Shown here one piece after another: positions 21,801 through 61,271 of a stretch of DNA of 64,000 nucleotides (the stretch's first letter is position 1; every line of letters starts with the position of its first letter). This stretch comes from Mesorhizobium sp. M3A.F.Ca.ET.080.04.2.1. GTDB taxonomy: Bacteria; Pseudomonadota; Alphaproteobacteria; Rhizobiales; Rhizobiaceae. Under the pieces are notes generated by a model, which saw nothing but the letters and a program-made list of their open reading frames with translations, did no database searches and was not told the DNA's origin. The stretch is taken from assembly GCF_003952525.1 (NCBI RefSeq), contig NZ_CP034451.1, forward strand, positions 4,030,001-4,094,000, in the 5' to 3' direction. A program made the position numbers and the translations under genes.

Positions 21801-21806
21801 CCGAGC

Positions 21807-34108: not shown

Positions 34109-36079
34109 ATTAAGGATGACGAGTTCAGGCCGAAGCTCGGCAAAATCGGGTCGCGCGGCTCGAAGGCCGGCAAACGCTATGCCGGCCAGGTTCGTGCGGC
34201 GATCAACCGGGCTGGCGGCCGGCCGCAACGCGGTGGTCGCTTCACAGGAAGCCGGACAGGGCGCGGCGGGGCGGCCGCCGCACTGCTGAAATCGCGCGAC
34301 CGGTATGCCGCCTTCCGCCAGCGCCGGGTGATCGTCAAGGCGCGGGTCGTCAAGCTCGCCGGCAAGGGCGCGGACGGGGCGCGTGCCCATCTACGCTATC
34401 TTCAGCGCGACGGGGTCACCCGCGAAGGTGAACCTGGCGAGCTCTACGGCGCCGACAGCGGCCGCGTCGACGGCAAGGCGTTCATCGATCGCGCGGACGG
34501 CGACCGCCATCAGTTCCGCTTCATCGTCGCTGCCGAAGACGGCATCGAGTACGACGACCTCAAGGCGCTGACGCGGCGGCTCATGGCGCAGATGCAGGAA
34601 GACCTCGGCACGAAGCTCGACTGGGTCGCGGTCGATCATTTCAACACCGGCCACCCGCACAGCCACATCATCGTCCGTGGCAGGGACGACCGTGGCGAGA
34701 ACCTGGTCATCGCGCGCGAATATATCTCATCTGGCATCCGCGAGCGGGCGGCCGAGCTGGTCAGCCTCGATCTCGGTCCGCGAACCGACCGCGAGATTGA
34801 GCTTCGCCTGCGCCGGGAAATGGAGCAGGAACGCTTCACCAGCATCGACCGTCGGCTGCTCAGCATGCGTGATGATGACGGCCTGGTCTCGCCGGGCGGT
34901 CCCGACGCCATTCGCCAGACGCTGCACCAGGGACGGCTGCGCAAGCTCGAGCGGATGGGTCTGGCCGCGGAGGTCGGCGCTGGCTCCTGGCGCCTCGACG
35001 ATGAGCTCGAAGCCACGCTGCGCCGCACCGGCGAACGCGGCGACATCATCAAGACCATGCACCGCGAACTGACCGGCAAGGGGCTTGCCCGCAGGGCCGC
35101 CGACTGGGTGATCCACGATCGATCCGGCGAGCCCGTCCAGTCTCTCGTCGGTCGCGTTGTCGCGCGTGGACTGGCCGACGAGATCAATGACCGCCATTAC
35201 ATGATCGTCGACGCCGTCGACGGTAAGAGCCATTGGATCAACATCGGTAGAGGCGAGGCGATGGAAACGATGCCTAATGGCTGCATCGTGCGTGTCGCGC
35301 CAAGGAACACCGAGCCGAGGCAGGTCGATCGTACCATCGCCGAAATCGCCGCCGCGCATGGCGGCCGTTACGACGTCGATATGCACCTGAAGCATGACCC
35401 ATCCGCCACCGAGAGCTTTGCGCGAACGCATGTGCGGCGGCTGGAGGCGATCCGCCGCGCGACCGGCGGCGTCGAGCGAGAGCCGAACGGCACCTGGCTC
35501 ATCGCGCCGGACCATCTCGATCGCGTCGCGAATTATGAGGGCCAGCGGGCCAGGGCCGAGCCTGTCGTTGCCGACAAGCTCTCCTCAATGGCGCTGGAGC
35601 GACAGGTCAGCTTCAACGGCGCCACCTGGCTCGACCGGGAGCTGGTTGCCGATAGACCCGAGCCTTTGCACGGATCCGGCTTCGGCCGCGACGTGAGAGA
35701 GGCGCAAGCTCGCCGGCGGCAGTGGCTGATCGCGCAAGGCCTCGCGCATAAAGAACAGGATGGGATCGTCTATCGAGCCAACATGCTTTCGATCCTGCGC
35801 CAGCGAGAACTGAACCGTGTTGCTGGCCAACTGTCGGAGGAACTTGGCCTGCCCTATGCCGAAGCGCGATCCGGAGGACGAGTAGAGGGTACGCTCCGCC
35901 GCTCCGTCGAGCTTGCCAGCGGAAAATATGCCGTCGTTGAAAAGTCGCGCGAGTTCACGCTGGTGCCATGGCGGCCGGTGCTTGAGCGCCATGTGGGCAA
36001 GGAGGTCTCCGGTGTCGTAAGTGGGGAGGGGATTTCATGGACCGTCGGCCGGCAAAGGAGCGGACCTGGTGTTTCGTGA
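34109..36079 (+). CDS. rlxS: RlxS-type conjugative relaxase (DUF3363, VirD2-like), apparent ATT start
   Basis: The relaxase nicks oriT and pilots the strand into the recipient. The HUH metal motif is WVAVDHFNTGHPHSHIIVRG (about 170 residues in), with YISSGIRERAAELVSLDLGPR after it. The conserved N-terminus reads DDEFRPKLGKIGSRGSKAGK and runs into the frame of the first GTG (34328). No ATG, GTG or TTG lies between the in-frame stop at 34088-34090 and 34328. The codon with GGGAGG before it and in the expected place is ATT (34109). Counting from there the protein has 656 residues and ends in GRQRSGPGVS. Confidence 0.88.
   Translation: MKDDEFRPKLGKIGSRGSKAGKRYAGQVRAAINRAGGRPQRGGRFTGSRTGRGGAAAALLKSRDRYAAFRQRRVIVKARVVKLAGKGADGARAHLRYLQRDGVTREGEPGELYGADSGRVDGKAFIDRADGDRHQFRFIVAAEDGIEYDDLKALTRRLMAQMQEDLGTKLDWVAVDHFNTGHPHSHIIVRGRDDRGENLVIAREYISSGIRERAAELVSLDLGPRTDREIELRLRREMEQERFTSIDRRLLSMRDDDGLVSPGGPDAIRQTLHQGRLRKLERMGLAAEVGAGSWRLDDELEATLRRTGERGDIIKTMHRELTGKGLARRAADWVIHDRSGEPVQSLVGRVVARGLADEINDRHYMIVDAVDGKSHWINIGRGEAMETMPNGCIVRVAPRNTEPRQVDRTIAEIAAAHGGRYDVDMHLKHDPSATESFARTHVRRLEAIRRATGGVEREPNGTWLIAPDHLDRVANYEGQRARAEPVVADKLSSMALERQVSFNGATWLDRELVADRPEPLHGSGFGRDVREAQARRRQWLIAQGLAHKEQDGIVYRANMLSILRQRELNRVAGQLSEELGLPYAEARSGGRVEGTLRRSVELASGKYAVVEKSREFTLVPWRPVLERHVGKEVSGVVSGEGISWTVGRQRSGPGVS
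35961..36079 (+). repeat. rlxS 3' end, left copy of a duplicated segment
   Basis: The last 40 codons of rlxS (LVPWRPVLERHVG ... GRQRSGPGVS). It shares 16 identical bases (35961-35976) and 17 identical bases GGCCGGCAAAGGAGCGG (36047-36063) with a second copy at 39947-40043. Confidence 0.8.
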
Positions 36080-36434: not shown

Positions 36435-37421
36435 ATGACCACGGCCCGCCATATCGTGACGCTGCTTAAAAGCCACATTGCCGGCGACGAGGATCGTTTC
36501 CTCTCTATCGCGATGCAGCTTGCTGCGCATGAGGCACGTCAAGGCCATGGTAAGCTTGCTCAGGAGCTCAAGGATCTGGTCGACGCAGCCAAGAGCAGGG
36601 ACGCCCGGATTGTCAAGAGCAGTCGGCCGGTTCCCCTTTTTCAGCCAAAGGGCGAGCTCGCAGGGCTCCTGCATGTGCGCTATCCGGACCTGCGACTGAC
36701 CGACATGATTTTGCCGGACAGTCTGCGCTCGCGCCTGCACCGCGTGCTGGGAGAGCAGCGCCAACAAGCAAGCTTGCGCGAGCACGGGCTTGTTCCCCGT
36801 CGCAAACTGCTTCTGGTCGGCCCGCCAGGATCAGGCAAGACGATGACCGCATCGGCATTGGCCGGGGAGCTTCATCTGCCCCTTTTCACGATCGTCCTCG
36901 ATGGTTTGATCACCAAGTTCATGGGAGAGACTGCCGGAAAGCTGCGGCTTGTTTTTGATGCAATGCAGGCGACGCGGGGCGTCTACTTCTTTGACGAATT
37001 CGATGCCATCGGCGCGCGTCGAGGCGAACGCCAGGATGTTGGCGAGATTCGGCGCGTGCTGAATTCGTTTCTGCAGTTTCTCGAGCAAGACGACAGCCAC
37101 AGCCTGATTATTGCGGCAACAAATCATCCCGAGCTGCTCGACAGAGCTTTGTTCCGCCGTTTCGACGATGTCATCGAATACGCCGTGCCCGATCGGCCGA
37201 TTATAGAGGCGCTGCTTCGGGCTCGACTCGACCGCTTCGACACCAGAGGGCTTGCCTGGAACGAGGCGATCTCTCAGGCAGAGAGACTGTCGCAGGCCGA
37301 GATCACGCGCGCGGCCGACGACGCTGCAAAAACCATCATATTGCGGGGGGGGAAGCGGATCACCTCGGAAGCGCTCATCGACGCTCTGAAGGAACGCCGG
37401 CAGGCGTCGCTGTTTGAGTAG
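36435..37421 (+). CDS. ietA: IetA-like AAA+ ATPase
   Basis: A 328-residue AAA+ ATPase: Walker A GPPGSGKT (residues 129-136), Walker B VYFFDEFD (183-190), sensor-1 Asn in IIAATN, and arginine fingers in ALFRRFDDVI. Its partner, 17 bp downstream, is a subtilisin-like protease. AAA ATPase plus S8 protease pairs are known as IetAS, first described as a plasmid incompatibility/exclusion locus on a Ti plasmid and listed among antiphage systems. The ATPase presumably delivers or controls substrates for the protease. Confidence 0.85.
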   Translation: MTTARHIVTLLKSHIAGDEDRFLSIAMQLAAHEARQGHGKLAQELKDLVDAAKSRDARIVKSSRPVPLFQPKGELAGLLHVRYPDLRLTDMILPDSLRSRLHRVLGEQRQQASLREHGLVPRRKLLLVGPPGSGKTMTASALAGELHLPLFTIVLDGLITKFMGETAGKLRLVFDAMQATRGVYFFDEFDAIGARRGERQDVGEIRRVLNSFLQFLEQDDSHSLIIAATNHPELLDRALFRRFDDVIEYAVPDRPIIEALLRARLDRFDTRGLAWNEAISQAERLSQAEITRAADDAAKTIILRGGKRITSEALIDALKERRQASLFE

Positions 37422-37438
37422 CGACAGCACAGATCATA

Positions 37439-39901
37439 ATGGCAGACGATTTTCCGCGCGACCGCGCCCATATCCACCTTCGCAACAACGGCATTCGGGA
37501 AGCCTATCGGCGGCCCAACCAACTTATACATGCACCGCCGCTGCCGGCGCGTGATCGGGCGTCGCATGCTGCGGCCTTGACGCAATCCATCGAACAAGCG
37601 GTCGAAAGTGCACGCCAGCAGATTGCGGCGCGTGACCCCCAGCTGTCGGTCGGCACGCCTGGCTTTTACCTCGCGATCGATCTGCCCATGTCCGGACGGG
37701 CGGCCCTCGACCAGTTGGCCGATCGTCGCCAGCACATGGAGCTGGTCGCCGTCCATGAGCCAACTCAACCCGGTGCTCCCATCACAGCGTCGGTGTTCCT
37801 GCCGCAAAGCGCGCAAGCCTATTATTTGCGGAAAGTCGAGGCGTATCGAGACGTTGATACTGACCGCGGCAGACCGCGCAACGAGCCGCTCGTCTCCCGC
37901 ATGGAGACAGTCAGGCTGGCGACTGCACGATCGTTGTTTACCGACCACGACGACCTCTTCCCCCAGGCCGCTGACGAGCAGGTGTGGTGGGAAGTCTGGC
38001 TGCGCGACGGTCGCCGCGAGAACTTCGAGCACATTGCCGAAGCCCTGAACATCACTTTGCGCACGCATGCGGTTAGGTTTCCGGAGCGGGTGGTCATGCT
38101 GGCCCTCGCCAGCACGGCAATGCTCGACCGCATGATTGCGCACAGCGATGTCGTCGCCGAGCTGCGGCGCGCGAAGGATACGCCGTCCTTCTTCCTGGGC
38201 CTTGGCGGCGCGGAGCAAAGGGACTGGAGCGACGAGCTTCTCGGGCGCGTCAGACCGCCTCAATCCGATATTGCGGTCTGCATTCTCGACAGCGGCGTGC
38301 GTCGCACCCACCCGTTGATCGAACCCGCACTTGCCGTTTAAGACTGGCACACCGTCAAACCGGCATGGGGCAGCGACGACACACCTGCGTGGAGCGGCCA
38401 CGGGACGCGAATGGCAGGTGTCGGCCTGTACGGTGATCTGGTCCCGCTCCTGGTCGGAGGCGATCCAGTTCCATTGCCCTTTCGGCTGGAGAGTGTTCGT
38501 ATCCTTCCGCCAGAAGACGAGGCAAACGATCCAGAACTCTATGGCGCGATCACCGCGGAAGCGATCGCCCGCGCCGAGGTGCAGGCGCCGGAGCGCCGCC
38601 GCGCGATCGCAATGGCTGTGACAAGCGCCAGTCCGGCGCGTGGAAGGCCCACATCGTGGTCTGCCGCTATCGACCAACTCTGTTTCGAAGAGGAACAGCG
38701 ACGCTTGATCGTTCTCTCTGCCGGCAACATCGGCGATGACCTCATGCCGGCCGAGCATTTGACGCGCAACGATCTGGAAGCAGTCGATGATCCTTCTCAG
38801 GCCTGGAATGCGCTGACGGTCGGCGCTTTCACAGAAAAGGTCGATATCATTGACACCGACTTTTCGGGCTACGCTCCGATCGCGCCGGTCGGCGAGCTCT
38901 CGCCGCGCAGTCGCACTTCGGTCGTTTGGGACAGGCAGTGGCCGGTGAAGCCCGAGGTCGTCTTCGAAGGCGGCAATCTCGCCCATGACGGTGTGTTGCC
39001 CGGCGAGCCGATCGACGATCTGCAGATATTGACCACTTTCTGTCGACCCGAACTGCGCCACTTCACCACCCTCGGAGATACGAGCGCGGCAACGGCCCAT
39101 GCCGCACGGATGGCGGGACTAATTCTATCAGCGCGCCCCGAGCTGTGGCCTGAATCGGTTCGCGCCCTGATCGTCCACTCGGCCGAATGGACTCCGGCGA
39201 TGCGCGCACGCATCGATGCGTGCAACGGAGCGAAGGGCGAGATCCAGGCGCTCGTGCGGCGCTATGGTTACGGCGTGCCAGATCTTGGGCGCGCGCTTCT
39301 GTCAACGGTGAACGACCTCACGCTTATCGTTGAAGATGAGCTTCAGCCTTTCCAGCGCGAGGGCGGCGCGGCTGCCAAAACGCGTGACATGAAGCTGCAT
39401 CGCCTGCCTTGGCCGAAGGAGCAGCTCGCGGCGCTCGGCGCTGCCCAGCTCCGCGTCACGCTGTCCTATTTCATCGAACCCAACCCCGGTGAACGCGGAT
39501 GGACCCGCCGGCATCGTTACGCGTCCCATGGTCTTCGGTTCAGAGTAAAGTCAGCGACCGAGACAGTCGACGAATTCCGAGCCCGCATCAATCAGGCCGC
39601 TCGGGACGAGGAGGAAGGGGCGCCTGCTGGAGGCGGAGAAGAGTGGCTGCTCGGCACCTTCCGCGATCGCGGCTCGTTGCACGCCGATTTCTGGTCGGGC
39701 AGCGCCGCCGATCTCGCCGAGCGTGACGCGATCGGCGTGTTCCCGGTCGGGGGCTGGTGGAAGGAGAAGCCTTACCTGGAACGCGTCGACGCTCTGGCTC
39801 GGTACGCCCTGATTGTGACGATTCGGGCGCCTGGGGTCGATGTTGACATCTTCACACCCGTCGAAGCAGCCCTGACTGTCGAGACGTCGGTCGAGACCTG
39901 A
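37439..39901 (+). pseudogene. ietS: IetS-like subtilisin protease interrupted by an in-frame TAA
   Basis: The frame is continuous for 820 codons except for a single TAA at 38339-38341 (codon 301). Catalytic Asp is in AVCILDSGVRRTHP (residue 284), His in GHGTRMAG (residue 321), the oxyanion Asn in VLSAGNIGDD, and Ser in GDTSAATAHAARMAG (residue 549). The stop therefore separates Asp from His and Ser. Both sides are otherwise clean and read as one protein (DWHTVKPAWG follows the TAA directly), which suggests a recent point mutation (for example GAA or CAA to TAA), read-through, or a sequencing error. The C-terminal half (380-820) is a family-specific extension. Confidence 0.85.
38339..38341 (+). 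other. In-frame TAA between catalytic Asp and His of ietS
   Basis: The local reading is CTT GCC GTT TAA GAC TGG CAC. No start codon is available before M325 (38411), which is past the catalytic His, so re-initiation cannot restore a full active site. Confidence 0.85.
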
Positions 39902-40133: not shown

Positions 40134-41663
40134 TCAACGCGCTCCGTATTTGCGCCTGTAAGCGGCAATGAAATCGTCGTCGCTACAGATGCAGCGGCCG
40201 CTGGAGTCCTTGGCCTTCGGATCGTGCAAGTGAGAGCCAAGGGGGCGCAGAAGATTCACCCGAGTGCTCGTCGTCGGGCTCATGGGAAACCCCGCACTAT
40301 GCTTGACCAAATCCGCGGCAAGCATAATCCCGGCAAGCACCGACTGAAAGGCCATCGGAACCACAGTTCGAACGCGGCGACTTCCTTCGCTAAGCTGGAA
40401 CACCAGACCGCCGCAGATAGCCTGCTGATAAAAGGAGCGCAGGGGCTGGCCGACAAACGGGGCTAGCGGTTCAAACGGCACAGCCATCGCTGTAGCCACG
40501 CGAACTACAAAGTCGTTGGGAACTCCGGCATTTGTCTGCAGGAGCGTTTTCACCTGCTCGTGTGCTTCCGGTATTCCGAGTTCCTCGGCAATCAGCTGGT
40601 GCTCGTCCTTGGATTTTCCGGATGGCAGGTACATGCAACAAAGGCAAGCCTGGCCGTCATCGAAACCATGCCGGGAGATACCGAGATCGTGCTCCTGCAT
40701 CCAAGCGTTTGCGATCCATCGCGGCAGTGCACCTTGGACAGCCAGACGGTCGGCGGCGGTGTCAAGCGCCACACCCACTTGGTCTAAGACCCAATTGCCC
40801 CGGCGCGCAACATATTCTGCCCACGTCAGAGGGTGCGCCTCGACCTCAAGGCCAGTCGATCTAAGGGCGGTGGCTGCAAGAACCGCCTTGGACATACCAA
40901 TCTCCGCCTGGCCGGCCAATGCGTAGCGCTGCAGGTTTGAGAGTTCGATCGCTTCGTGATCGATTACATGCAGACGACCCTTGAGATCGGGTTGTCTCGC
41001 TAGCGCCCAAAGCGAGCCATGGCCTATCGCACCGAGCCCAACGAGGTGGGTTTCGCCAAGGTCGACTGGGAAGTCGATCGGGCCAGCCTCCCCGGCTTTG
41101 GTCTTGTCGTAGCTGCATAGCGAGAGGTCGATGGTTTCGTCCAACTCGGCGCCGGTCAACTGGGCGGCGAAGATAGTTCGAAAGACGTTGGCGGCGCCGA
41201 AGCAACTGGCGGCGCCAGCTCCAAAAGGCAGCAGACTTGGGCCAGAGCCCACCGGGTCCGTACGCGACAGCTTTGCCGCCCAACCGTCCGATCCCACGAA
41301 AAAGATCGGGCACCGGAGTGATGGGCGCGTTACCCCTGCAACGACGCAGACGGTGGCAGACTTGCCGGAACGCCGGATGCCGACTTTTGGATTGATCGAC
41401 TTTGCCAAGCGCTCCAGCGCTTGGGCTTGAGAGCTCGCCGCGCTGTCCAGCGGGAGTATCGCCAGAACCGGGTAGAGCCTAGCGAGCAATCTCACCGCAA
41501 GATCTAGTGTCGCCTGGCCTTCGGCGCAGGAAGCGGCCTGATGGTCGAAGGCGACTGCCACGACCTGCTTTTCAAGAGCTGCTTTGAAGTCTCCCAGATG
41601 AAAATCGGCCAGGACCTGAGATGCCGCCGTGGCGGCACGATCGATGAAGTTAGCGAATGCCAT
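40134..41663 (-). CDS. E1-like ubiquitin-activating enzyme (ThiF fold) of a Bil/Bub-type operon
   Basis: A 509-residue protein. Residues 1-200 form an N-terminal domain of unclear fold, possibly an inactive adenylation half. From about 205 it is a ThiF/E1 adenylation domain: LVGLGAIGHGSLWAL (nucleotide loop, 209-214), VIDHEAIELSNLQRY with Asp235 and Arg246. A Cys cluster ACLCCMY (340-343) could hold the catalytic thioester Cys or a metal. The tail has SSGRCICSDDDFIAAYRRKY. E1 activates the ubiquitin-like protein with ATP and passes it to E2. Last gene of the operon, 3 bp after the JAB gene, and convergent with the rlxS remnant. Confidence 0.88.
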   Translation of the reverse strand: MAFANFIDRAATAASQVLADFHLGDFKAALEKQVVAVAFDHQAASCAEGQATLDLAVRLLARLYPVLAILPLDSAASSQAQALERLAKSINPKVGIRRSGKSATVCVVAGVTRPSLRCPIFFVGSDGWAAKLSRTDPVGSGPSLLPFGAGAASCFGAANVFRTIFAAQLTGAELDETIDLSLCSYDKTKAGEAGPIDFPVDLGETHLVGLGAIGHGSLWALARQPDLKGRLHVIDHEAIELSNLQRYALAGQAEIGMSKAVLAATALRSTGLEVEAHPLTWAEYVARRGNWVLDQVGVALDTAADRLAVQGALPRWIANAWMQEHDLGISRHGFDDGQACLCCMYLPSGKSKDEHQLIAEELGIPEAHEQVKTLLQTNAGVPNDFVVRVATAMAVPFEPLAPFVGQPLRSFYQQAICGGLVFQLSEGSRRVRTVVPMAFQSVLAGIMLAADLVKHSAGFPMSPTTSTRVNLLRPLGSHLHDPKAKDSSGRCICSDDDFIAAYRRKYGAR

Positions 41664-41666
41664 TGT

Positions 41667-42155
41667 TCAACTCGATATCATGATCATTCGCGACAGTGCC
41701 GCGGGAGGGAGCGCATTCCATTTGGCCTTTTCGTCAAGCCGATAGGCGGCGACCCGAGCAAAATCGAAAGGCTCGCGGGCGAAATTCGGCACTACCAGCG
41801 ACAGACACCCAACCGTGGTAGCAACCGCATAAGCGTCGTCCGTCGTCGAATGGTAGGCGCGGCCCGGATGGCTGTGAATCTGGGCCAAGAGTTTCAGGCC
41901 GCTTTTGTAGAGCCAGACATTGAGCCGGTGCAGTTCTTCGGCCGCAACGATCACGCAAACGCCATCGTTTGTCCGAATGTGACGCTGCGCCGGGATAACC
42001 GTCTCTGTTACGGCAAAGTGCCGGTCTTGCTGAACGCCGACCCAGAGCGCCATCCCCTCATTGCCTTCGCGACCAACTGAGCGCAGATGCCCATGCGTGG
42101 TCGAGATGCAGCCGCGCGGGAGAGTCACGATCGTTACATCTCTCAAACCAGTCAT
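41667..42155 (-). CDS. JAB/JAMM metallo-isopeptidase (deubiquitinase-like) of the Bil/Bub-type operon
   Basis: A 162-residue protein with the JAMM zinc site: Glu in GNEGMALWVG, then QIHSHPGRAYHSTTDDAY (HxH ... S..D). It would trim or remove the ubiquitin-like protein. The start is the ATG overlapping the E2 stop by 4 nt (ATGA); the frame is open upstream to 42305 but that part is E2 in another frame. In the published Bil order (UBL, E2, E1, peptidase) this gene is last; here it comes before the E1. Confidence 0.9.
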   Translation of the reverse strand: MTGLRDVTIVTLPRGCISTTHGHLRSVGREGNEGMALWVGVQQDRHFAVTETVIPAQRHIRTNDGVCVIVAAEELHRLNVWLYKSGLKLLAQIHSHPGRAYHSTTDDAYAVATTVGCLSLVVPNFAREPFDFARVAAYRLDEKAKWNALPPAALSRMIMISS

Positions 42156-42769
42156 TCTTGTATCGCCTGAGGGGATACCACCATTCCTACGATTGCCGGT
42201 GGGAGTTGAATCTGCAACTGCTCTATAGGAATGATTCCGTACTTGATGATCTTGTCCAGGATGAAGGCCAAACAGCCTTCGCCAGAACCCCGATGAAGTA
42301 GCCATGGATCACCTGAATGGGCTGGATTGTCGTGGTATTCCCGGACGCCCGCCATGCACAGGAATGGTTCGTCCTCGGGACTGTTGGCCTGGATGAAGTC
42401 CGTCAGCGGCACGGCGTTCTGCTGGATGAGAGCTCCTATCATCTCCGGCGGCGTTCCGGGCAGCGGCGGACGTCTAAGCATTTTCAGGTATAGATCTTTC
42501 CGGGCAATCGGATGACGCGTAAACGGATCGACGAAGACCACGGACGGTGGTCTTAAGTCGTAGTCGGTGAAGTCGACCTCGCTCGCTGCGCTGATCACCC
42601 GTGGTTTTAACTTGAGGCTTGCGAAAATGAAGAAAGCGCGCGGAAAGGTCGCCTCGATCAAGAAGCAGCCCTGAGCCCGATAGACATCAGCATATGGCCG
42701 GAACCGGCCGATCTCCCGATCAAACTTCGCTCGGGAGACCTCCGGATCCACACTTTGGGGTTTAGGCAC
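42152..42769 (-). CDS. E2-like ubiquitin-conjugating protein of the Bil/Bub-type operon
   Basis: A 205-residue prokaryotic E2-like protein. The likely catalytic Cys is Cys138 in DEPFLCMAGVREYHDN, followed by PAHSGDPWLLHRGSGEG; this Cys...H...W pattern is typical of bacterial E2 folds found next to ThiF and JAB genes. The N-terminal part (RFRPYADVYRAQGCFLIEAT) fits the UBC alpha/beta core. Starts with GTG, overlapping the UBL stop by 8 bp, and its stop overlaps the JAB start. Function inferred from neighbours. Confidence 0.82.
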   Translation of the reverse strand: MPKPQSVDPEVSRAKFDREIGRFRPYADVYRAQGCFLIEATFPRAFFIFASLKLKPRVISAASEVDFTDYDLRPPSVVFVDPFTRHPIARKDLYLKMLRRPPLPGTPPEMIGALIQQNAVPLTDFIQANSPEDEPFLCMAGVREYHDNPAHSGDPWLLHRGSGEGCLAFILDKIIKYGIIPIEQLQIQLPPAIVGMVVSPQAIQE

Positions 42770-43058
42770 CTGCGACGCCCGCCTTCAGGCTGAGGAACAG
42801 GGTCACAGTATTCGGGAAACCGAAATCGCCAAGCTTCTTGTCGACGTCGAGCAAGTTGCCGGCCTCATCCTTCAATTCCCAATTCTCGGCTGGTTGGGCG
42901 ACATTCTGCGTGTTCTCAAGGGCTTTGGTACGAATGACGTGAAGCGGCTGGTTGGGATTGGCTTCGACCTGCGTGGGCTGGCCGTTCACCACCATCGTGA
43001 TCTCGATCTTGCCCGGCCCGCCGCCGTGATTATCGCCCTTACCCGAATCCTTCGACAT
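42762..43058 (-). CDS. Ubiquitin-like protein, first gene of the Bil/Bub-type operon
   Basis: 98 residues. A flexible Gly-rich head (SKDSGKGDNHGGGPG) precedes a beta-grasp-like domain (KIEITMVVNGQPTQVEANPN, HVIRTKALENT, WELKDEAGNLLD, KLGDFGFPNTVTLFLSL). The C-terminus is KAGVAGA, without the Gly-Gly of eukaryotic ubiquitin; Gly97 followed by Ala98 implies one-residue trimming or direct use of Ala. I think it belongs to the DUF2604-type UBLs but could not check. Start is the ATG (MSKDSG); an in-frame extension to 43091 lacks support. Confidence 0.82.
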   Translation of the reverse strand: MSKDSGKGDNHGGGPGKIEITMVVNGQPTQVEANPNQPLHVIRTKALENTQNVAQPAENWELKDEAGNLLDVDKKLGDFGFPNTVTLFLSLKAGVAGA

Positions 43059-44608
<1,550 letters not shown>

Positions 44609-48034: not shown

Positions 48035-48068
48035 GGTTGCTCATGTGATCTGTGGAAGTGAGGCTAGC

Positions 48069-51698: not shown

Positions 51699-51904
51699 CT
51701 TTGCGGAGGAGCGGTCACGCAACTGTCGGCGGCGCCGGGCCTCAGGGTGAATGGAGAGGATGGTGTCGCGTGAAGGCGCAACACGCGTGCTGACCGACCT
51801 GCATAGTAGGAAGTCGTTCATTGCTCCCAAATCGTATGTGAGGAACATTCCTGTCCCGGCTGCACCGCGCGATGCTAGGTCGCGTTGTTCAGCGGGCCAA
51901 GCCG

Positions 51905-53929
51905 ATGACACCTACGAAGCTACTGATCGGGCAGATCGCCGTTGTGTGCGCAATTGTCATTATCGGCGTATGGACGGCAACCCAATGGTGCGCTCAAATG
52001 CTGACCTACCAGACGCCTCTCGGCGCACCATGGTTTCTCTTCGCCGGCTGGCCAATCTACAAGCCGTGGAAGCTGTTTGAATGGTGGTTCCACTTCGATG
52101 CTTATGCGCCGGAGGTCTTCGACAAAGCCGGTACGCTTGCAGGCGCCAGCGGATTCCTGGGCTGTGCCGCCGCAATCGCAGGCTCGCTTTTGCGCGCGCG
52201 ACAGCGCGGGTCGGTTACGACCTATGGGTCTTCACGGTGGGCCACGACTCATGAGGTCGAGACGGCAGGGTTGTTACGGCCGGCGGGCGTTTTCCTCGGT
52301 AGGCTGAACGATCGCTATCTGCGCCATGACGGCCCGGAGCACGTCATGGCATTTGCGCCGACGCGTTCGGGCAAGGGCGTGGGGCTGGTTGTTCCAACGC
52401 TACTTTCCTGGACCGGGTCTGCCATCATTCATGATATAAAAGGCGAAAATTGGCAGTTGACCTCCGGCTGGCGGTCGAAATTCTCGTACTGCCTTCTGTT
52501 CAATCCGACCGACCCGAGATCGGCACGCTACAACCCGCTGCTGGAGGTGCGCAAAGGCCCAGATGAGATCCGGGACGTTCAAAACATCGCCGACATCCTC
52601 GTCGATCCCGAGGGCGCGCTGGAGCGACGGAATCACTGGGAGAAGACCAGCCATTCACTCCTAGTTGGCGCCATTTTGCACGTGCTCTACGCTGAAGAGG
52701 ACAAGACGCTAGCCCGCGTCGCCACCTTCCTGTCGGACCCGCAACGCTCGTTTGCCGCAACGCTACGGCGGATGATGACGACAAACCATCTCGGGACGGG
52801 GCATAACCCTCAGGTCCATCCCGTAGTGGCCTCGGCGGCTCGCGAACTCCTGAACAAGTCGGAAAACGAGCGCTCAGGCGTCCTCTCGACCGCCATGTCC
52901 TTTCTTGGGCTTTATCGTGATCCAACGGTCGCGGCGGCCACTTCGTCCTGCGACTGGCGCATCGCTGACCTAGTGGATGGAGAGCGACCGCTGTCGCTCT
53001 ATCTGGTCGTGCCGCCTTCGGATATCTCGCGCACCAAGCCTTTGGTGCGACTGATCTTGAACCAGATCGGCAGGCGGTTGACGGAGCGTCTGGAGGGGGA
53101 CCCGAAGAAGAGCCGTAAGCATCAGCTGCTCATGATGCTGGACGAGTTTCCGGCGCTCGGTCGCCTCGACTTCTTCGAAACGGCGCTCGCCTTCATGGCA
53201 GGTTATGGCATTCGCTCCTATCTGATCGCACAATCTTTGAACCAGGTTTCAAAGGCCTATGGCGAGAACAATGCTATTCTCGACAATTGCCACGTGCGAA
53301 TTGCCTTTTCCTCCAATGACGAACGCACGGCCAAGCGCATCTCGGATGCCCTCGGCACCGCAACCGAACTTAGGTCGATGCGCAACTATGCGGGCCATCG
53401 GCTTGCGCCCTGGCTTTCACATGTCATGGTGAGCCGCCAGGAAACCGCGCGCCCGCTCCTGACGCCAGGCGAGGTGATGCAATTGCCGCCGTCAGACGAA
53501 TTGGTCCTGGTTTCTGGGTTGCCGCCGATCCGCGCCAAGAAGCTGCGCTATTATCAGGATCAGAATTTCACAGATCGGGTGCTGCCTGCGCCGGTGCTGC
53601 ACGACGGACCCTATGCGGACTGCCCTGCATCACGCCCGGACGGCTGGACTGGACAAGTGTGCAGCGTCGATAGCCGACTTGCTGCGGACGAGGAAAGCGC
53701 CGACGCGCCAGTTGAAGACGAGGGAGGCGTTCAGCAGCAACGCCATCCAAGCCTGCCCGAAGAAGACGTTGTTGTCTCTCAAGAGCCCGATCAGGCCGAT
53801 CTGTACAAGCCCGCAGACGATGACAGCGAAGCGCTCGCGGACAAGCGTGTCATGGATCGGATTTCCACTGCGGCCCGCGCCTACGGTATCAACGAGGGCA
53901 GGGGCGACGATGTCATTCCCGGCTTCTGA
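51905..53929 (+). CDS. traG: TraG / VirD4-type conjugal coupling protein
   Basis: A 674-residue ATPase linking relaxosome and channel. Two N-terminal membrane helices (LLIGQIAVVCAIVIIGVW; LAGASGFLGCAAAIAGSLL) precede Walker A in APTRSGKGVGLVVPTLL (about residue 155) and Walker B in LLMMLDEFPALGRLDFFE. YGSSRWATTHEVETAGLL and the KGENW stretch are TraG hallmarks. The ATG at 51905 gives the usual TraG N-terminus; an upstream ATG at 51872 would add 11 basic residues. The tail after 600 is acidic and variable. Confidence 0.94.
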   Translation: MTPTKLLIGQIAVVCAIVIIGVWTATQWCAQMLTYQTPLGAPWFLFAGWPIYKPWKLFEWWFHFDAYAPEVFDKAGTLAGASGFLGCAAAIAGSLLRARQRGSVTTYGSSRWATTHEVETAGLLRPAGVFLGRLNDRYLRHDGPEHVMAFAPTRSGKGVGLVVPTLLSWTGSAIIHDIKGENWQLTSGWRSKFSYCLLFNPTDPRSARYNPLLEVRKGPDEIRDVQNIADILVDPEGALERRNHWEKTSHSLLVGAILHVLYAEEDKTLARVATFLSDPQRSFAATLRRMMTTNHLGTGHNPQVHPVVASAARELLNKSENERSGVLSTAMSFLGLYRDPTVAAATSSCDWRIADLVDGERPLSLYLVVPPSDISRTKPLVRLILNQIGRRLTERLEGDPKKSRKHQLLMMLDEFPALGRLDFFETALAFMAGYGIRSYLIAQSLNQVSKAYGENNAILDNCHVRIAFSSNDERTAKRISDALGTATELRSMRNYAGHRLAPWLSHVMVSRQETARPLLTPGEVMQLPPSDELVLVSGLPPIRAKKLRYYQDQNFTDRVLPAPVLHDGPYADCPASRPDGWTGQVCSVDSRLAADEESADAPVEDEGGVQQQRHPSLPEEDVVVSQEPDQADLYKPADDDSEALADKRVMDRISTAARAYGINEGRGDDVIPGF

Positions 53930-54045
53930 AGTCCGCTGAGTTGCAGAGCGCACCTCAGCGTAGATAACGGCCATAAGCAATTTTGAGCGTCTGGCCGATG
54001 CTTCTCCCGTCGCCGGCGCAACGCCGGGCCGTCGGAACGAGCCGC

Positions 54046-54459
54046 ATGAAGCCGCACCGCATTCGCCATCAGTTTCTGCTTGAGCCGGAGCTCAGCGAGA
54101 AACTGGACAACCTCAGTCGCGATCCGTCAACGACCAAATCAGCGATCGTGGCGAAGGCGATCGAGGCGTTCATCGAGCGGCGTGGCGAGAGCGAGTTCGA
54201 TCGGCGCTACGGCGTAAGGCTTGACCGGCTCTCCCGCGATCTTGCCCACGTCAGGCGCGATTCCGAGGTGATCCTGGAGAGCCTGGCGCTCTTCATCCGC
54301 TTTTCGATCACCCTTCACGCCCACACGCCGGTCCCGGATCGGGCAACGCAGGCTATTGCCCAAGAGCGTTTCGAGAAATTCGTTGAGAAGGTCGGCCGCC
54401 AGATCGCTTCCGGCAAAAAGTCGCTTAGCAAAGACAATGGTGGGGGAGGGGAAGGATGA
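54046..54459 (+). CDS. Ribbon-helix-helix (CopG-like) protein of the tra-trb operon
   Basis: 137 residues. The N-terminus KPHRIRHQFLLEPELSEKLD, NLSRDPSTTKSAIVAKAIEA and FIERRG is a ribbon-helix-helix DNA-binding fold; the rest is helical. Such a protein regularly lies between traG and trbB in rhizobial conjugation clusters and may regulate the operon or assist the relaxosome. The start chosen is the ATG before the RHH; the frame is open to 53983. Stop overlaps trbB by 4 nt. Confidence 0.8.
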   Translation: MKPHRIRHQFLLEPELSEKLDNLSRDPSTTKSAIVAKAIEAFIERRGESEFDRRYGVRLDRLSRDLAHVRRDSEVILESLALFIRFSITLHAHTPVPDRATQAIAQERFEKFVEKVGRQIASGKKSLSKDNGGGGEG

Positions 54460-55424
54460 GCTCTCATCCCGAGGCCGACCACCGGCGGCGTGTCATGCTG
54501 CGCACCGCCATGGGTCCGGCAATCACCGAAGCCCTGGCCGATCCGTCCGTCATCGAGGTGATGGTCAATCCCGACGGCGCGCTGCGACTCGACCGGTTAG
54601 GCGAAGGTCGGGTCGATACCGACGTTCACATGCACCCGTCCGAGGCAGAACGTATCATCCGCCTGGTTGCTTCGCACGTGCGCGCCGAGGCGCACGCCGA
54701 CAACCCGATCGTCAGTGCCGAATTGCCGTCTGGCGAACGCTTCGAAGGCCTGCTGCCACCTGTGGTGTTGGCGCCATGTTTTGCCATCCGCAAGCCCGCC
54801 GCGAAAGTCTACACCCTGGCCGACTATGTTGCCGAACGCATCATGCTGCCGCTGCAGGCCGATGCGCTGAAAAAGGCCGTCCGCGAGCGGCGCAACATGC
54901 TGATCGCCGGCGGCACTTCCTCGGGGAAGACAACACTCGCCAACGCTCTGCTGGCTGAAGTCGCCGAATGCGACGATCGGGTGATCCTGATCGAGGACAC
55001 ACGCGAACTGCAGTGCGCGGCCAGGGACTGCGTTGCCCTGAGAACAAGGCGGGGCTCGGTCACCCTTGCCGATCTCGTGCGCTCGACGCTGAGGCTCAGG
55101 CCGGACCGCATCATCGTGGGCGAGGTGAGGGGCGCGGAAGCGCTCGACATGCTGAAGGCATGGAACACCGGGCACCCAGGCGGCATCGCTACCGTACACG
55201 CCAATTCCGCGCGCTCGGCTCTCTATCGCATTGAGCAACTCGCCCAGGAAGCGGTGGTCACCGTTCCCCGCCGGCTCATCGCTGAGGCGATAGATCTGAT
55301 CGTCTTCATAGCGGGACGCGGCTCGTCGCGCCACATCGACGCAATCGCCGAGGTCACCGGTCTCGACGGCAGCGGCGATTACGCCGTTGCCCCGCTCACG
55401 CTTTCGCAACTCCAGCAGCTTTGA
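54456..55424 (+). CDS. trbB: TrbB, VirB11-type secretion ATPase
   Basis: A 322-residue hexameric ATPase at the base of the mating channel. It has VIEVMVNPDGALRLDRLGEG, Walker A IAGGTSSGKTTLANALL (about residue 150), the Asp box ILIEDTRELQC, Walker B region LRLRPDRIIVGEVRGAEALD and the His box NTGHPGGIATVHANS. First gene of trbBCDEJLFGI. Confidence 0.96.
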   Translation: MSSHPEADHRRRVMLRTAMGPAITEALADPSVIEVMVNPDGALRLDRLGEGRVDTDVHMHPSEAERIIRLVASHVRAEAHADNPIVSAELPSGERFEGLLPPVVLAPCFAIRKPAAKVYTLADYVAERIMLPLQADALKKAVRERRNMLIAGGTSSGKTTLANALLAEVAECDDRVILIEDTRELQCAARDCVALRTRRGSVTLADLVRSTLRLRPDRIIVGEVRGAEALDMLKAWNTGHPGGIATVHANSARSALYRIEQLAQEAVVTVPRRLIAEAIDLIVFIAGRGSSRHIDAIAEVTGLDGSGDYAVAPLTLSQLQQL

Positions 55425-55436
55425 AAGGCCTTCCTC

Positions 55437-55745
55437 ATGCGCAAGAAGCTTCGCTTTCTTTCGTCCACAGCGCTCGCGTTTCTTAACACGGCCCCGGTTT
55501 ATGCCGCCGGCTCCGGCATGCCGTGGGAGCAGCCGCTGCAGCAGATCCTGGAGTCCGTGCAGGGACCGGTCGCCAAGATCGTTGCGGTGATCATCATTAT
55601 CACCACCGGCCTGACGCTTGCCTTCGGCGACACCGCCGGTGGTTTTCGGCGCCTGATTCAGATCGTCTTCGGTCTGTCAATCGCCTTCGCGGCATCGAGC
55701 TTCTTCCTCTCCTTCTTCTCCTTCGGTGGTGGGGCGCTCGTCTGA
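55437..55745 (+). CDS. trbC: TrbC, prepilin (VirB2-like)
   Basis: 102 residues with a cleavable N-terminus (LSSTALAFLNTAPVYAAGSG) and two membrane helices (VAKIVAVIIIITTGLTLAFG; LIQIVFGLSIAFAASSFFL), the layout of cyclic pilins. Maturation would be by the TraF peptidase. The last base of its stop codon is the first base of trbD. Confidence 0.93.
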   Translation: MRKKLRFLSSTALAFLNTAPVYAAGSGMPWEQPLQQILESVQGPVAKIVAVIIIITTGLTLAFGDTAGGFRRLIQIVFGLSIAFAASSFFLSFFSFGGGALV

Positions 55746-56017
55746 TGGCCGCCGGGGAGCAGCATATCGAGGGCTTCGCAGTACCGGTCCACCGGGCGCT
55801 GACCGAGCCGATCCTGCTCGGCGGGGCTCCGCGCGCGGTGGCGATCCTCAACGGTACAGTGGCCGCGGCCATTGGCTTCGGCTTGCAGCAATGGATTGCT
55901 GGTCTGGTGCTTTGGATCGCAGGCCACTCGTTAGCGGTGTTTGCCGCAAGACGCGATCCGGACTTCGCCAGCGTGCTTGTGCGCCACCTACGTCTGAAGG
56001 GGTGGCTTGCATGCTGA
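55745..56017 (+). CDS. trbD: TrbD, VirB3-like inner-membrane protein
   Basis: 90 residues: EGFAVPVHRALTEPILLGGA is the TrbD/VirB3 signature, followed by two helices (AVAILNGTVAAAIGFGL; WIAGLVLWIAGHSLAVFAA) and the RRDPDF motif. Overlaps trbC by 1 bp and trbE by 7 bp. Confidence 0.93.
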   Translation: MAAGEQHIEGFAVPVHRALTEPILLGGAPRAVAILNGTVAAAIGFGLQQWIAGLVLWIAGHSLAVFAARRDPDFASVLVRHLRLKGWLAC

Positions 56018-58461
56018 ACCTTTCGGAATATCGAAGCAAAGCCGACCGGCTTGCCGACCATCTACCCTGGGCTGCCTTGGTGGCGCCCGGCATCGTGCTC
56101 AACAAGGACGGCAGCTTTCAGCGGACGTTGCGGTTCCGCGGCCCGGATCTCGAAAGTGCGACGGAGGCTGAACTCGTCGGCATTTGCGCCCGGGCGAACA
56201 ATGCTCTCAGACGCCTTGGCTCTGGCTGGGCATTGTTCTTTGAGGCCGAGCGCACAGAAGCGCTGGGCTATCCGAACTCGCATTTTCCTGACGCCGCGTC
56301 GTGGCTGGTCGACGAAGAACGCCGCGCTGCTTTCGAGGGGAAGGTAGCGCACTACGAGAGCCGCTATCATCTGACCTTGGTGTTTATGCCACCGCCGGAC
56401 GCCCAGGCGCGCGCAGAAAGCGCGCTCGTCGACTCTCATTATTCCCGAGGAGAAAGAGACTGGCGCCAGGATCTGGCGAGGTTCCGTGACGAGACCAACC
56501 GCGTGCTCGATCTCTTCTCGGGTTTCATGTCCGAAGTACGCGTCCTCGATGATGCTCAGACGTTGACCTACCTCCACGGCACGATTTCGCCTCGTCGCCA
56601 TCCTATCATGGCCCCGGAAACGCCGATATATCTGGATGCAATCCTGGTCGATGCGCCGCTTACCGGTGGCCTGGAGCCGATGCTGGGTGAGCAGCATCTT
56701 CGCACACTGACCATCCTCGGCTTTCCGAACCTCACCCGGCCCGGAATCCTCGATACCCTCAATCATCAGGATTTCGCCTATCGCTGGATGACGCGCTTCA
56801 TTCCGCTCGAGAAAACGGAAGCCACGAAGACGCTGACGCGATTGCGCCGGCAGTGGTTTGCCAAGCGCAAATCGATCGTGGCAATCCTACGCGAGGTCAT
56901 TACCAACGAGCCGGTCCCGCTTGTCGATAACGATGCCGACAACAAGGCGCTCGATGCCGACGAAGCCCTTCAGGCATTGGGCGGTGATCATGTGAGTTTC
57001 GGCTATCTCACCACCACCGTGACGGTGTGGGGCGAGGATCGCCAAGCCGCTGCAGAGAAGCTTCGCGCGGTCGAGCGCATCATCAATGGGCTCGGCTTCA
57101 CCACGATCCGAGAAGGCGTCAATGCGGTCGAGGCTTGGCTCGGCTCATTGCCTGGCCATGTCTACGCTAACGTTCGCCAACCGCTCGTTCATACATTGAA
57201 CCTTGCCCATCTCATGCCGCTGTCGTCGGTTTGGGCCGGTCCTGCGACAAACGAGCATCTCGCGAAAGTCACCCAAACCGAAGCGCCACCGCTTTTCGTT
57301 GCCGAGACCAGTGGGTCGACACCGTTTCGGCTTTCCACCCACGTCGAAGATGTCGGCCACATGCTGGTTGTTGGTCCGACCGGCGCCGGCAAGTCGGTTC
57401 TGCTTGCTCTGATTGCTCTGCAGTTCAGGCGCTATGCCGGCGCCCAGGTTTATGTCTTCGACAAAGGCAATTCGGCCCGTGCTGCAACACTTGCCATGGG
57501 TGGAGAACACCACGCGCTAGGAGCGGACGGTTCCCTTGCCTTTCAGCCACTGCGCAGCATCAACGACCAGGCTAGCCGAAGCTGGGCGGCCGAATGGATC
57601 GCCAGCCTTGTTGCCCACGAGAACGTCACCGTCACGCCGGAGGTGAAGGAGGCTATTTGGTCAGCGCTGGCCAGCCTTGCCACCGCGCCGGCGCAGGAAC
57701 GCACACTGACCGGTCTTTCGGTCCTGCTTCAATCCAATGCGCTGAAGACCGCATTGATGCCCTACACGCTCGACGGTCCCTTCGGCCGCCTGCTCGATGC
57801 CGATCATGATGGGCTGGCCTTGTCGGATGTGCAGTGTTTCGAGACCGAGGAGTTAATGCACAGCCAAGGCGCTTTGCTGCCGGTGCTTACCTATCTGTTC
57901 CAGCGACTTGAGGAACGGTTCGACGGACGGCCCACGCTGATCATGCTCGACGAGGCGTGGGTCTATCTCGACAATCCGCTGTTCGCCGCCCGCATCCGCG
58001 AATGGCTGAAGGTGCTGCGAAAGAAGAACGTGTCGGTTGTCTTCGCTACGCAGTCGCTGGCTGATATCGCGGGCTCTGGCATAGCGCCGGCAATCATCGA
58101 AAGCTGCCCGCAGCGCATTTTCCTTCCCAATGATCGTGCCGTGGAACCCCAGGCGCGCACAGCCTACGAGCGCTTCGGTTTAAGCGAGCGGCAGATCGAA
58201 TTGATCGCCCGCGCCACGCCGAAGCGTCAGTATTATCTGCAATCGCGCCGCGGCAACCGTCTGTTCGAGCTCGAGCTTGGCCCCATCGCTCTTGCGCTTT
58301 GCGGTGCTTCCGATCCGGCCACGCAGACTCTGATCGACAGGATCATGTCCGAAGACGGGCAAGGCAGCTTTGCCTCGCAGTTCCTGATCGCGCGCGGCCT
58401 CGATTGGGCCGGCGAACTTCTCAAGCAATTCCCTCAACCAGACAAGGAGCAATTCTCATGA
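56011..58461 (+). CDS. trbE: TrbE, VirB4-type ATPase
   Basis: An 816-residue ATPase energising pilus assembly and transfer. It starts with MLNLSEYRSKADRLADHLPW and has Walker A VVGPTGAGKSVLLALI near residue 455 and Walker B TLIMLDEAWVYLDNP near 645, followed by VVFATQSLADI and RIFLPND. The ATG at 56011 is chosen because upstream in-frame sequence belongs to trbD in another frame. Overlaps trbJ by 4 nt. Confidence 0.96.
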   Translation: MLNLSEYRSKADRLADHLPWAALVAPGIVLNKDGSFQRTLRFRGPDLESATEAELVGICARANNALRRLGSGWALFFEAERTEALGYPNSHFPDAASWLVDEERRAAFEGKVAHYESRYHLTLVFMPPPDAQARAESALVDSHYSRGERDWRQDLARFRDETNRVLDLFSGFMSEVRVLDDAQTLTYLHGTISPRRHPIMAPETPIYLDAILVDAPLTGGLEPMLGEQHLRTLTILGFPNLTRPGILDTLNHQDFAYRWMTRFIPLEKTEATKTLTRLRRQWFAKRKSIVAILREVITNEPVPLVDNDADNKALDADEALQALGGDHVSFGYLTTTVTVWGEDRQAAAEKLRAVERIINGLGFTTIREGVNAVEAWLGSLPGHVYANVRQPLVHTLNLAHLMPLSSVWAGPATNEHLAKVTQTEAPPLFVAETSGSTPFRLSTHVEDVGHMLVVGPTGAGKSVLLALIALQFRRYAGAQVYVFDKGNSARAATLAMGGEHHALGADGSLAFQPLRSINDQASRSWAAEWIASLVAHENVTVTPEVKEAIWSALASLATAPAQERTLTGLSVLLQSNALKTALMPYTLDGPFGRLLDADHDGLALSDVQCFETEELMHSQGALLPVLTYLFQRLEERFDGRPTLIMLDEAWVYLDNPLFAARIREWLKVLRKKNVSVVFATQSLADIAGSGIAPAIIESCPQRIFLPNDRAVEPQARTAYERFGLSERQIELIARATPKRQYYLQSRRGNRLFELELGPIALALCGASDPATQTLIDRIMSEDGQGSFASQFLIARGLDWAGELLKQFPQPDKEQFS

Positions 58462-59183
58462 TGCGGCGACGCCTTCTCTCCGGCCTGATCACCGTTTCCC
58501 TGATCGCCAAGCCTATGGCCGACTATGTGCAGCCCGCGTACGCCCTTATCGTGTTCGATCCGTCCAATTATGCGCAGAACGTGCTGACGGCCGCGCGCGC
58601 ATTGGAGCAGATCAACAACCAAATCCAGTCGCTGCAGAATCAGGCGACCATGCTGCAGAACATGGCGCGCAATCTTCAGCGTCTGGATTTCTCTTCCGTT
58701 GGCCAACTCACCGGTTCGCTCCATCGCATCGACGGCTTGATGGACCAGGCGAGTGGCCTCAGCTTTGATCTGGGCAAGCTTCAAGACCAGTGGCGCAGCC
58801 AATATCCGGAAAGCTACGACGCCACGATCAAAGTCAGCGATGTGGCGAGTGCTGCGCGGGAGCGTTGGCAAACCGCCATGCAGGCGTTCCGCCAGACCAT
58901 GGGTGTCCAGTCGCAAATCGTCGAGAACGTCCGCGCCGACGGCGATCTGCTCGCCGATCTCGTCAACCGCAGCCAAGGGGCGGCCGGTGCGCTTCAGGCA
59001 AGCCAGGCCACCAACCAGCTGATGGCGCTTTCGACAAAACAGCAGATGCAGATCCAGACGCTGCTCGCAACGCAGTTTCGAGCTGAGGCCGAGGATGCCG
59101 CCCGCAAGGCCCAGTCAGACGAAGCCGCCCGCGAGATGACGAAGCGGTTCTTGGGTACCGGCTCGGCTTATCCCGGCAATTAA
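58458..59183 (+). CDS. trbJ: TrbJ, VirB5-like periplasmic protein
   Basis: 241 residues with a signal peptide and then IVFDPSNYAQNVLTAARALE, QINNQIQSLQNQATMLQNMA, the long coiled-coil typical of TrbJ. VirB5 family proteins sit at the pilus tip or contribute to entry exclusion. A start of ATGATG overlaps the trbE stop. Confidence 0.94.
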   Translation: MMRRRLLSGLITVSLIAKPMADYVQPAYALIVFDPSNYAQNVLTAARALEQINNQIQSLQNQATMLQNMARNLQRLDFSSVGQLTGSLHRIDGLMDQASGLSFDLGKLQDQWRSQYPESYDATIKVSDVASAARERWQTAMQAFRQTMGVQSQIVENVRADGDLLADLVNRSQGAAGALQASQATNQLMALSTKQQMQIQTLLATQFRAEAEDAARKAQSDEAAREMTKRFLGTGSAYPGN

Positions 59184-59216
59184 TCACGAGTTCATCACGA
59201 CGAGAAAGGCAGCGGC

Positions 59217-60539: not shown

Positions 60540-61271
60540 ATGCTCTTCAAGCGACCCGTGCACCGTTACGGCAAAACACCCGAACCGGTCACGCCGTATC
60601 AAAAAGCCGCCCAACTGTGGGACGAGCGCATCGGCTCATCTCGACTGCAGGCCAGGAACTGGCGGATCATGGCCCTTGGCTGCCTGGCCTTGGCGACCGG
60701 GCTTTCCGGCGGACTCGTATGGCAGTCGATGCAAAGCCGTGTCGTGCCTTATGTCGTCGAGGTCGATGGCTTCGGCGAGACGCGCGCCGTCGCGCCGGCG
60801 GTCCGGAATTATGAGCCCTCGGATGCTCAGATCGCCTGGCATCTCGGCCGCTTCATCCAGAATGTCCGTTCCGTTTCCACCGATCCGGTTTTGGTTCGGC
60901 AGAACTGGTTGGCAGCGTACGACTTTGCTAGCGATCGCGCAGCGCTCTTCCTCAACGAATACGCCAAGGCGAACGACCCCTTCGGTCAGATCGGAACGCG
61001 CAGTGTTTCGGTACAGGTCACCAGCGTGGTCAGAGCCTCCGAAAGTTCATTCCAGGTCAAATGGACCGAGCAGGTGTTTGAGCGCGGAAGCCTTGCCAGC
61101 ACGATGCGCTGGACTGCGATCCTCACGATCGTGATCCGCTCGCCAAGCAATACGGATCAGCTGCGCAAGAATCCGCTCGGCGTCTTCATCAATGCCATTG
61201 ACTGGTCACGCGAGCTCGACAGCGCCGTCCCAGCCCCCCTTTCTCCGACGGAGTCCACCAATGAAAGGTAA
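60540..61271 (+). CDS. trbF: TrbF, VirB8-like scaffold protein
   Basis: 243 residues: cytoplasmic head (FKRPVHRYGKTPEPVTPYQK, AAQLWDERIGSSRLQARNWR), one membrane helix (IMALGCLALATGLSGGLVW) and a periplasmic domain (QSRVVPYVVEVDGFGETRAV, FEVNP-like region FIQNVRSVSTDPV, LGVFINAIDWSREL). Starts right after the trbL stop and overlaps trbG by 11 bp. Confidence 0.95.
   Translation: MLFKRPVHRYGKTPEPVTPYQKAAQLWDERIGSSRLQARNWRIMALGCLALATGLSGGLVWQSMQSRVVPYVVEVDGFGETRAVAPAVRNYEPSDAQIAWHLGRFIQNVRSVSTDPVLVRQNWLAAYDFASDRAALFLNEYAKANDPFGQIGTRSVSVQVTSVVRASESSFQVKWTEQVFERGSLASTMRWTAILTIVIRSPSNTDQLRKNPLGVFINAIDWSRELDSAVPAPLSPTESTNER

Follow-up and report, generated by a model that had tools for sequence, protein, structure and literature searches.

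Does the four-gene cluster at positions 43058 to 40134 (minus strand) of the Mesorhizobium sp. M3A.F.Ca.ET.080.04.2.1 window, by which we mean the whole 64,000-nucleotide stretch analyzed here (contig NZ_CP034451.1, positions 4,030,001 to 4,094,000), encode a known bacterial ubiquitin-conjugation system of the Bil type, or is it a new one? An earlier sequence-only reading had recognized a Bil-type operon and suggested that it might be a distinct subtype. Judged by homology, the cluster is the described Bil operon, complete and intact, and not a new kind. They follow one another in the order ubiquitin-like protein (UBL), E2, JAMM peptidase, and E1:

42762..43058, minus strand: bilA, single-domain ubiquitin-like protein (DUF2604), 98 amino acids, precursor end ...AGVAGA; PF10790, E = 4.2e-36; PDB 8tyx_A, Ubl(BilA), E = 3.4e-56
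42152..42769, minus strand: bilB, E2 (Pfam Metal_CEHH), GTG start, 205 amino acids, catalytic C138 with E144, H146, and H151; PF14455, E = 2.8e-99; PDB 8tyz_C, E2(BilB), E = 2.2e-110
41667..42155, minus strand: bilC, JAB/JAMM peptidase, 162 amino acids from the likely ATG, with E33, H94, H96, and D107; Prok-JAB, E = 1.6e-06; PDB 8tyx_B, DUB(BilC), E = 1.3e-85
40134..41663, minus strand: bilD, E1, 509 amino acids; PF14459, E = 5.2e-76; ThiF, E = 1.3e-10; PDB 8tyz_A, E1(BilD), 1032 bits over residues 1 to 507
Within bilD: N-terminal domain labeled Prok-E2_C, residues 38 to 166; ThiF adenylation residues D235, R246, and K259; catalytic C417; CxxC at 340/343; CxC at 491/493

The UBL and E2 genes overlap by 8 bases. 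The longest JAB frame opens at 42305, but 42155 is the preferred and likely start because the solved BilC chain begins there; with this start, the E2 and JAB genes overlap by 4 bases. The JAB and E1 genes lie 3 bases apart without overlapping, so the sequence-only description of four overlapping genes holds for two junctions and fails at the third. The residues and motifs named in that reading (E2 C138, JAMM HSHPG, E1 GLGAIG, D235, R246, and the CxC at C491/C493) are all present. The catalytic set is complete in the E2 (C138, E144, H146, and H151), in the JAB peptidase (E33, H94, H96, and D107, with the roles of the last three assigned from the motif), and in the E1 (D235, R246, and C417). Profile (hidden Markov model) comparison bore out all four identifications, as DUF2604, PF14455, Prok-JAB, and PF14459 plus ThiF; scores exceeded the Pfam cutoff for DUF2604, Metal_CEHH, Prok-JAB (narrowly, 28.4 versus 25 bits), Prok-E2_C, and ThiF.

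The identification as BilABCD rests principally on solved structures, from which the folds of the window proteins were assigned by homology. A search of PDB sequences returned one to four distinct sequences per window protein, with Bil chains on top, and all four proteins match the BilA to BilD chains of PDB entries 8TYX, 8TYY, 8TYZ, and 8TZ0 along their length (for the E1, residues 1 to 507 of 509), which upholds the original call of a Bil-type ubiquitin-conjugation operon. These entries represent the Ensifer aridi system, with which the window shares gene set, gene order, domain plan, and catalytic residues. Identity to the copy in the E. aridi LMR001 genome (locus L046; L numbers designate loci in our comparison set) is 81 to 93% (UBL, 91/98; E2, 169/201; JAB, 131/162; E1, 463/507), although the flanking genes differ there, with no match to the window relaxase or IetAS-type genes described below. 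UniRef labels one E2 homolog "E2(BilB), Ensifer aridi"; JAB E33 is the position mutated (E33A) in the solved BilC chain 8tyx_B; and passages of a structural review (PMC11354881) give E2 residues C138, E144, H146, and H151 and E1 residue C417 the same numbers in BilB and BilD. The PADLOC models for BilC and BilD also matched (E = 1.1e-16 and 1.2e-15). A literature search found no mention of DUF2604.

Residue conservation agrees with this assignment. The E2 residues C138, E144, H146, and H151 are kept in 38/38 aligned proteins (the window protein and 37 chosen among the 120 matches listed of 669 found); together with the solved homolog named E2(BilB), this argues that the E2-like protein is a genuine E2. 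E1 residues D235, R246, K259, C417, C340, C343, C491, and C493 are all retained in 40/40 aligned proteins (the window protein and 39 chosen among the 120 matches listed of 1091 found, with scoring limited to the 7998 candidates that shared the most words), so that the active residues proved conserved in both enzymes. The UBL tail reads AGVAGA in 14 of 15 aligned copies and AGVAGG in the fifteenth (L055, 8615-8911), in which the tail exposed after trimming may differ.

The features that had suggested a distinct subtype turn out to belong to the family at large, and a new Bil subtype is thereby ruled out. UBL-E2-JAB-E1 is the ordinary A-B-C-D order, in which the peptidase precedes the E1. The roughly 200-residue N-terminal domain of the E1 is the counterpart of the inactive adenylation domain that passages of the structural review (PMC11354881) describe for BilD. 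The CxC tail is general, given its retention in every aligned E1; it is probably paired with C340/C343 in a structural zinc site. The operon class itself was described earlier as class 6c, from the Rhizobium sp. NGR234 megaplasmid and from M. loti, R. etli, and others (Iyer et al. 2006, PMC1779556, consulted in part), and the pNGR234a copy is 79 to 90% identical to the window in the four proteins; the portion consulted lists E2+E1, JAB, and a metal-binding protein, without the UBL. More distant is the Methylobacterium brachiatum system (PDB 8u38), which shares UBL conjugation with an E1, an E2, and a JAB peptidase and is 55% (E2, P0107) and 56% (E1, P0167) identical. Its BilA chain is 243 amino acids long and is matched in its last third, and passages of PMC11354881 describe BilA with two UBL domains, whereas the window BilA consists of one. 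Bub operons, likewise bacterial and similar to UBL conjugation, are set apart from the window Bil by description only; a partially available source (PMC13373217) treats Bub as a separate family for which, it says, protection against phage has not been demonstrated.

To examine how well the operon is maintained, we compared 50 loci, many of them near-identical: the window, 5 plasmid loci, and 44 genome loci taken from a contig scan for close E1 relatives, which samples the distribution without exhausting it. All four genes occur in the same order on one strand in 48 of the 50. No stop interrupts the matched stretches of these 48 loci, and 46 of them have each gene either matched up to a few residues from its ends or open at full length. 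Among 25 pairs from 15 loci, the ratio of nonsynonymous to synonymous divergence (dN/dS) was 0.07 to 0.41 wherever dS exceeded 0.1, and divergent copies are thus under purifying selection. The preserved order and this selection indicate that the gene set is not a chance assembly. Plasmid records contain eight close copies in Mesorhizobium and Sinorhizobium, pNGR234a included, and more distant E1 relatives (47%) on four Rhizobium plasmids, one of them from R. etli CFN 42. PF14455 is uncommon in the taxonomic family of the window, with matches in 6 of 394 genomes spread across it, two of which are weak and partial.

Several observations count against this picture of an intact and typical Bil operon. 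The PADLOC-DB 2023 models for BilA and BilB found no match among the window proteins. The window copy must therefore have diverged from the types behind those models; because the E. aridi proteins of known structure carry Bil names, we take the failure as a limit of the models. The window E1 is 10 residues shorter than the usual 519 (the 509-amino-acid form occurs in 10/50 loci and the 519-amino-acid form in 34/50), and its last residues (40134-40166) differ, its tail departing from that of E. aridi in the last two residues. A promoter/terminator scan found no promoter-like sites in 43000-43400, where 0.2 were expected, which makes the absence weak evidence. Lastly, three barely diverged gene pairs gave dN/dS values of 0.62 to 0.65 at dS of 0.007 to 0.021, with too few changes to weigh.

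On balance, the locus is almost certainly a single-UBL rhizobial BilABCD like that of E. aridi, which would trim, load, and conjugate its UBL, by analogy to a phage protein. In the proposed pathway, BilC would, by analogy, cleave the UBL precursor after ...AGVAG, exposing a C-terminal glycine; BilD would adenylate the UBL at the ATP site formed by D235, R246, and K259 and then carry it as a thioester on C417; and BilB would accept it on C138 and attach it to target-protein lysines. No separate E3 is encoded in the operon. A second role of BilC may be to take the tag off again. UBL processing, E1 activation, E2 catalysis, and tail-fiber tagging are reported for other Bil systems in the passages available to us. 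For the Collimonas sp. OK412 system, which shares UBL conjugation with an E1, an E2, and a JAB peptidase and is likened to the window by description only, passages of PMC11364771 and PMC11676413 describe covalent attachment to the phage central tail fiber, yielding tailless or nonfunctional particles. By analogy, the target here would be a phage structural protein, with infected cells releasing defective particles. We infer on the same grounds that the window copy would be expressed, active, and anti-phage, and that the single-UBL rhizobial branch would share this activity.

The genomic setting bears on what the operon is for. Conjugation genes lie on both sides, with an interrupted defense gene pair filling the gap between Bil and the relaxase:

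34328..36079, plus strand: relaxase; DUF3363, E = 9.9e-145; MobA/VirD2-like Relaxase match just below the cutoff (23.7 of 24.6 bits)
36435..37421, plus strand: IetA-like AAA ATPase; PADLOC IetA, E = 9.3e-74; neighboring defense pair, outside Bil
37439..39901, plus strand: IetS-like subtilase with an in-frame stop at codon 301; pieces 37439-38341 and 38411-39901
51872..63509, plus strand: type IV secretion system (T4SS)/conjugation genes; TraG-type coupling protein, TrbE-like, TrbL, CagX-like, and TrbI

The operon thus sits with the relaxase to its left and the T4SS genes to its right, as the sequence-only reading had placed it. That reading went further and called the operon cargo of a symbiosis integrative and conjugative element (ICE). 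Given the flanking transfer genes and the presence of nodA (3,766,860) and nifH (3,821,204) on the same 6.17-Mb contig, approximately 263 and 208 kb to the left of the window, the host element is likely a symbiosis ICE; these genes make the case for such an element but stop short of demonstrating it. A relaxase match was detected in 40 of the 50 loci, the ten others being eight Sinorhizobium/Rhizobium loci and two (L053 and L056) that hold E1 fragments only. The relaxase gene directly follows the E1 gene, tail to tail, in L009, L011, L041, L043, L045, L049, L050, and L055, with the match confined to residues 209-583 in L009 and L043.

In the window clade, the gap between Bil and the relaxase is occupied by an IetAS-like pair. 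By eye, the IetS stop at codon 301 separates the motifs that carry the catalytic Asp and His. Of 29 related loci, 7 have a stop at this codon too, and the frame is broken near codon 275 in nine others, so IetS appears to be undergoing decay next to an intact Bil. In L044 (12639-20644), the corresponding gap holds a different IetAS-like pair, with IetS read in two overlapping frames, together with a DUF6884/PDC-M57 gene and a SIR2-like gene; L042, checked for an IetA-like match only, has the same one as L044 (36%). Different IetAS-type pairs have been inserted into this gap at least twice. The unlike pairs, together with the SIR2-like and PDC-M57 genes, indicate that the gap collects defense genes, and Bil is thus linked with IetAS-type genes in a small defense hotspot beside the relaxase.

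This setting also fits a different role: the conjugation enzymes may work while the selected function in rhizobia concerns conjugation by the element itself or by a competitor, or symbiosis, and not phage defense. Such a role would account for the presence of the operon on symbiosis plasmids and islands. The frequency of the relaxase gene within the loci fits it, as do the symbiosis genes that neighbor some copies (nolL in L009; nifB/nifT in L010), and the literature passages searched, which did not extend to the primary papers, contained no anti-phage test of the single-UBL branch. Nevertheless, all 8 Sinorhizobium/Rhizobium copies in the comparison set lack this relaxase nearby, so the operon is not generally linked to transfer genes; the defense neighbors point to a defense hotspot; and in the passages of PMC11364771, Collimonas Bil tags phage tail fibers. 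We consider a nondefense role, and with it this explanation of the symbiosis linkage, distinctly unlikely. That the operon is functionless cargo is far less probable still. Some observations do favor it: the neighboring IetS is interrupted, L053 and L056 retain E1 fragments alone, the JAB end has diverged in L051, and the E1 start is altered in L049 (Mesorhizobium loti CJ3sym, 9947-10001), where the match covers the protein only from residue 17 onward and the frame is closed immediately ahead of that point. These cases are outweighed by the 48 four-gene loci with no stop in their matched stretches, nearly all with genes close to full length, and by dN/dS well below 1 in divergent pairs.

Equally remote is an E1-E2 fusion akin to Cap2/Cap3 of the type II cyclic oligonucleotide-based antiphage signaling system (CBASS). 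Here the ThiF protein would contribute the E2 through its Prok-E2_C-labeled N-terminal domain, leaving the CEHH protein as a metal-binding accessory, which is the assignment proposed in 2006. The Pfam label PF14459, weak PADLOC E1-E2 matches, and an N-domain cysteine (C154) kept in 40/40 aligned E1 proteins all lean that way. So do two sources available in part: the class 6c description, which assigned the E2 to the E1 N-terminal domain (PMC1779556), and PMC10952713, which gives PF14455, PF14464, and PF14459 for both ISG15-like and type II CBASS systems. Type II CBASS does share E1/E2-like chemistry and a JAB peptidase with the window operon; however, the fused N-terminal E2 domain of Cap2 conjugates a CD-NTase (PMC12355090, in the portion consulted), whereas the window encodes a separate UBL and E2, and no CD-NTase was found among the seven gene products scanned. 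The PDB chain names E1(BilD) and E2(BilB) agree with a separate E2, and passages of the structural review (PMC11354881) describe an inactive adenylation domain at the E1 N terminus and a CEHH protein that is an E2 with catalytic C138, and the fused reading taken from the Pfam names is rejected on this ground.

Within this shared framework, the E2 gene probably has a history of its own. The loci fall into two E2 classes, A (the window, L022, L029, L038, and L050) and B (L009, L011, L041 to L045, L049, and L055), between which dS is 0.68 to 0.85 in the E2 versus 0.18 to 0.29 in the E1. For the window and L011, for example, dS reaches 0.73 in the E2 and 0.15, 0.14, and 0.18 in the UBL, JAB, and E1, respectively. 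Against five class B loci, E2 dS is 0.72 to 1.35 in residues 21-110 and 173-205, compared with 0.32 to 0.51 in residues 126-172 and 0 to 0.58 in the first 20 codons. In tree tests on 22 loci (the 50 less 26 near copies and two fragments), a single branch of the E2 tree (100/100) separates class B from the rest, whereas the E1 data reject a class B clade (approximately unbiased test, p-AU 0.0103). In L055, the JAB gene is divergent too (dS 0.60). From the raised E2 dS, the conflict between trees, and the L055 JAB divergence, we conclude that the E2, sometimes with the JAB, was probably exchanged by recombination; E2 alleles appear to be interchanged while the chassis stays more constant. Rapid adaptive evolution of the E2 is ruled out: where its identity to a relative is low, synonymous divergence is raised just as much, a pattern explained by recombination and not by high dN/dS. 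In both unrooted trees, E2 and E1, the Mesorhizobium group (with Aminobacter) is separated from Sinorhizobium/Rhizobium, so the trees point to no particular donor.

One might tentatively propose that, in Mesorhizobium, the E2 gene of Bil serves as an interchangeable unit of specificity: two deeply divided allele classes (dS about 1 outside the core) would be swapped by recombination on a more constant UBL/E1 chassis, the catalytic core being less diverged, and the E2 would pick the phage protein to be tagged, such that swapping would change the target. We regard this as a rather doubtful conjecture, and chance exchange accounts for the swapping too. If it were true, E2 swapping would be how Bil changes targets, no E3 being encoded; either way, natural E2 allele swaps on one chassis offer a ready test of the target-selecting component in bacterial ubiquitination that lacks an encoded E3.

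The operon class was already known, the gene order, E1 domain plan, and CxC tail are shared by the family, and another copy of a published system by itself changes little. Modestly new are the position of the operon between relaxase and T4SS genes, the recurrent relaxase neighbor in Mesorhizobium, the repeated entry of IetAS-type genes, and the E2 mosaic; a single-UBL Bil can thus sit inside the transfer module of a probable symbiosis element. The findings to retain are the E2 mosaic and the defense hotspot next to the relaxase.

Three further observations concern the surroundings of the operon. Divergent from Bil, a frame at 43274-44608 matches FMN-dependent dehydrogenases over residues 297-409; by eye, it resembles a type 2 isopentenyl-diphosphate isomerase following a terpene-synthase-like remnant. 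Just before the coupling-protein gene, a 1217-amino-acid protein (48045-51698) carries a C48 (Ulp1-type) protease domain. Such domains occur in rhizobial symbiosis effectors. That a ubiquitin-like protease lies 5 kb from a ubiquitin-like conjugation operon is probably coincidental. On the Mesorhizobium plasmid of L009, a multiubiquitin-domain protein lies beside a ThiF protein (20907-22973), approximately 8 kb from Bil, and this pair is a second ubiquitin-like system.

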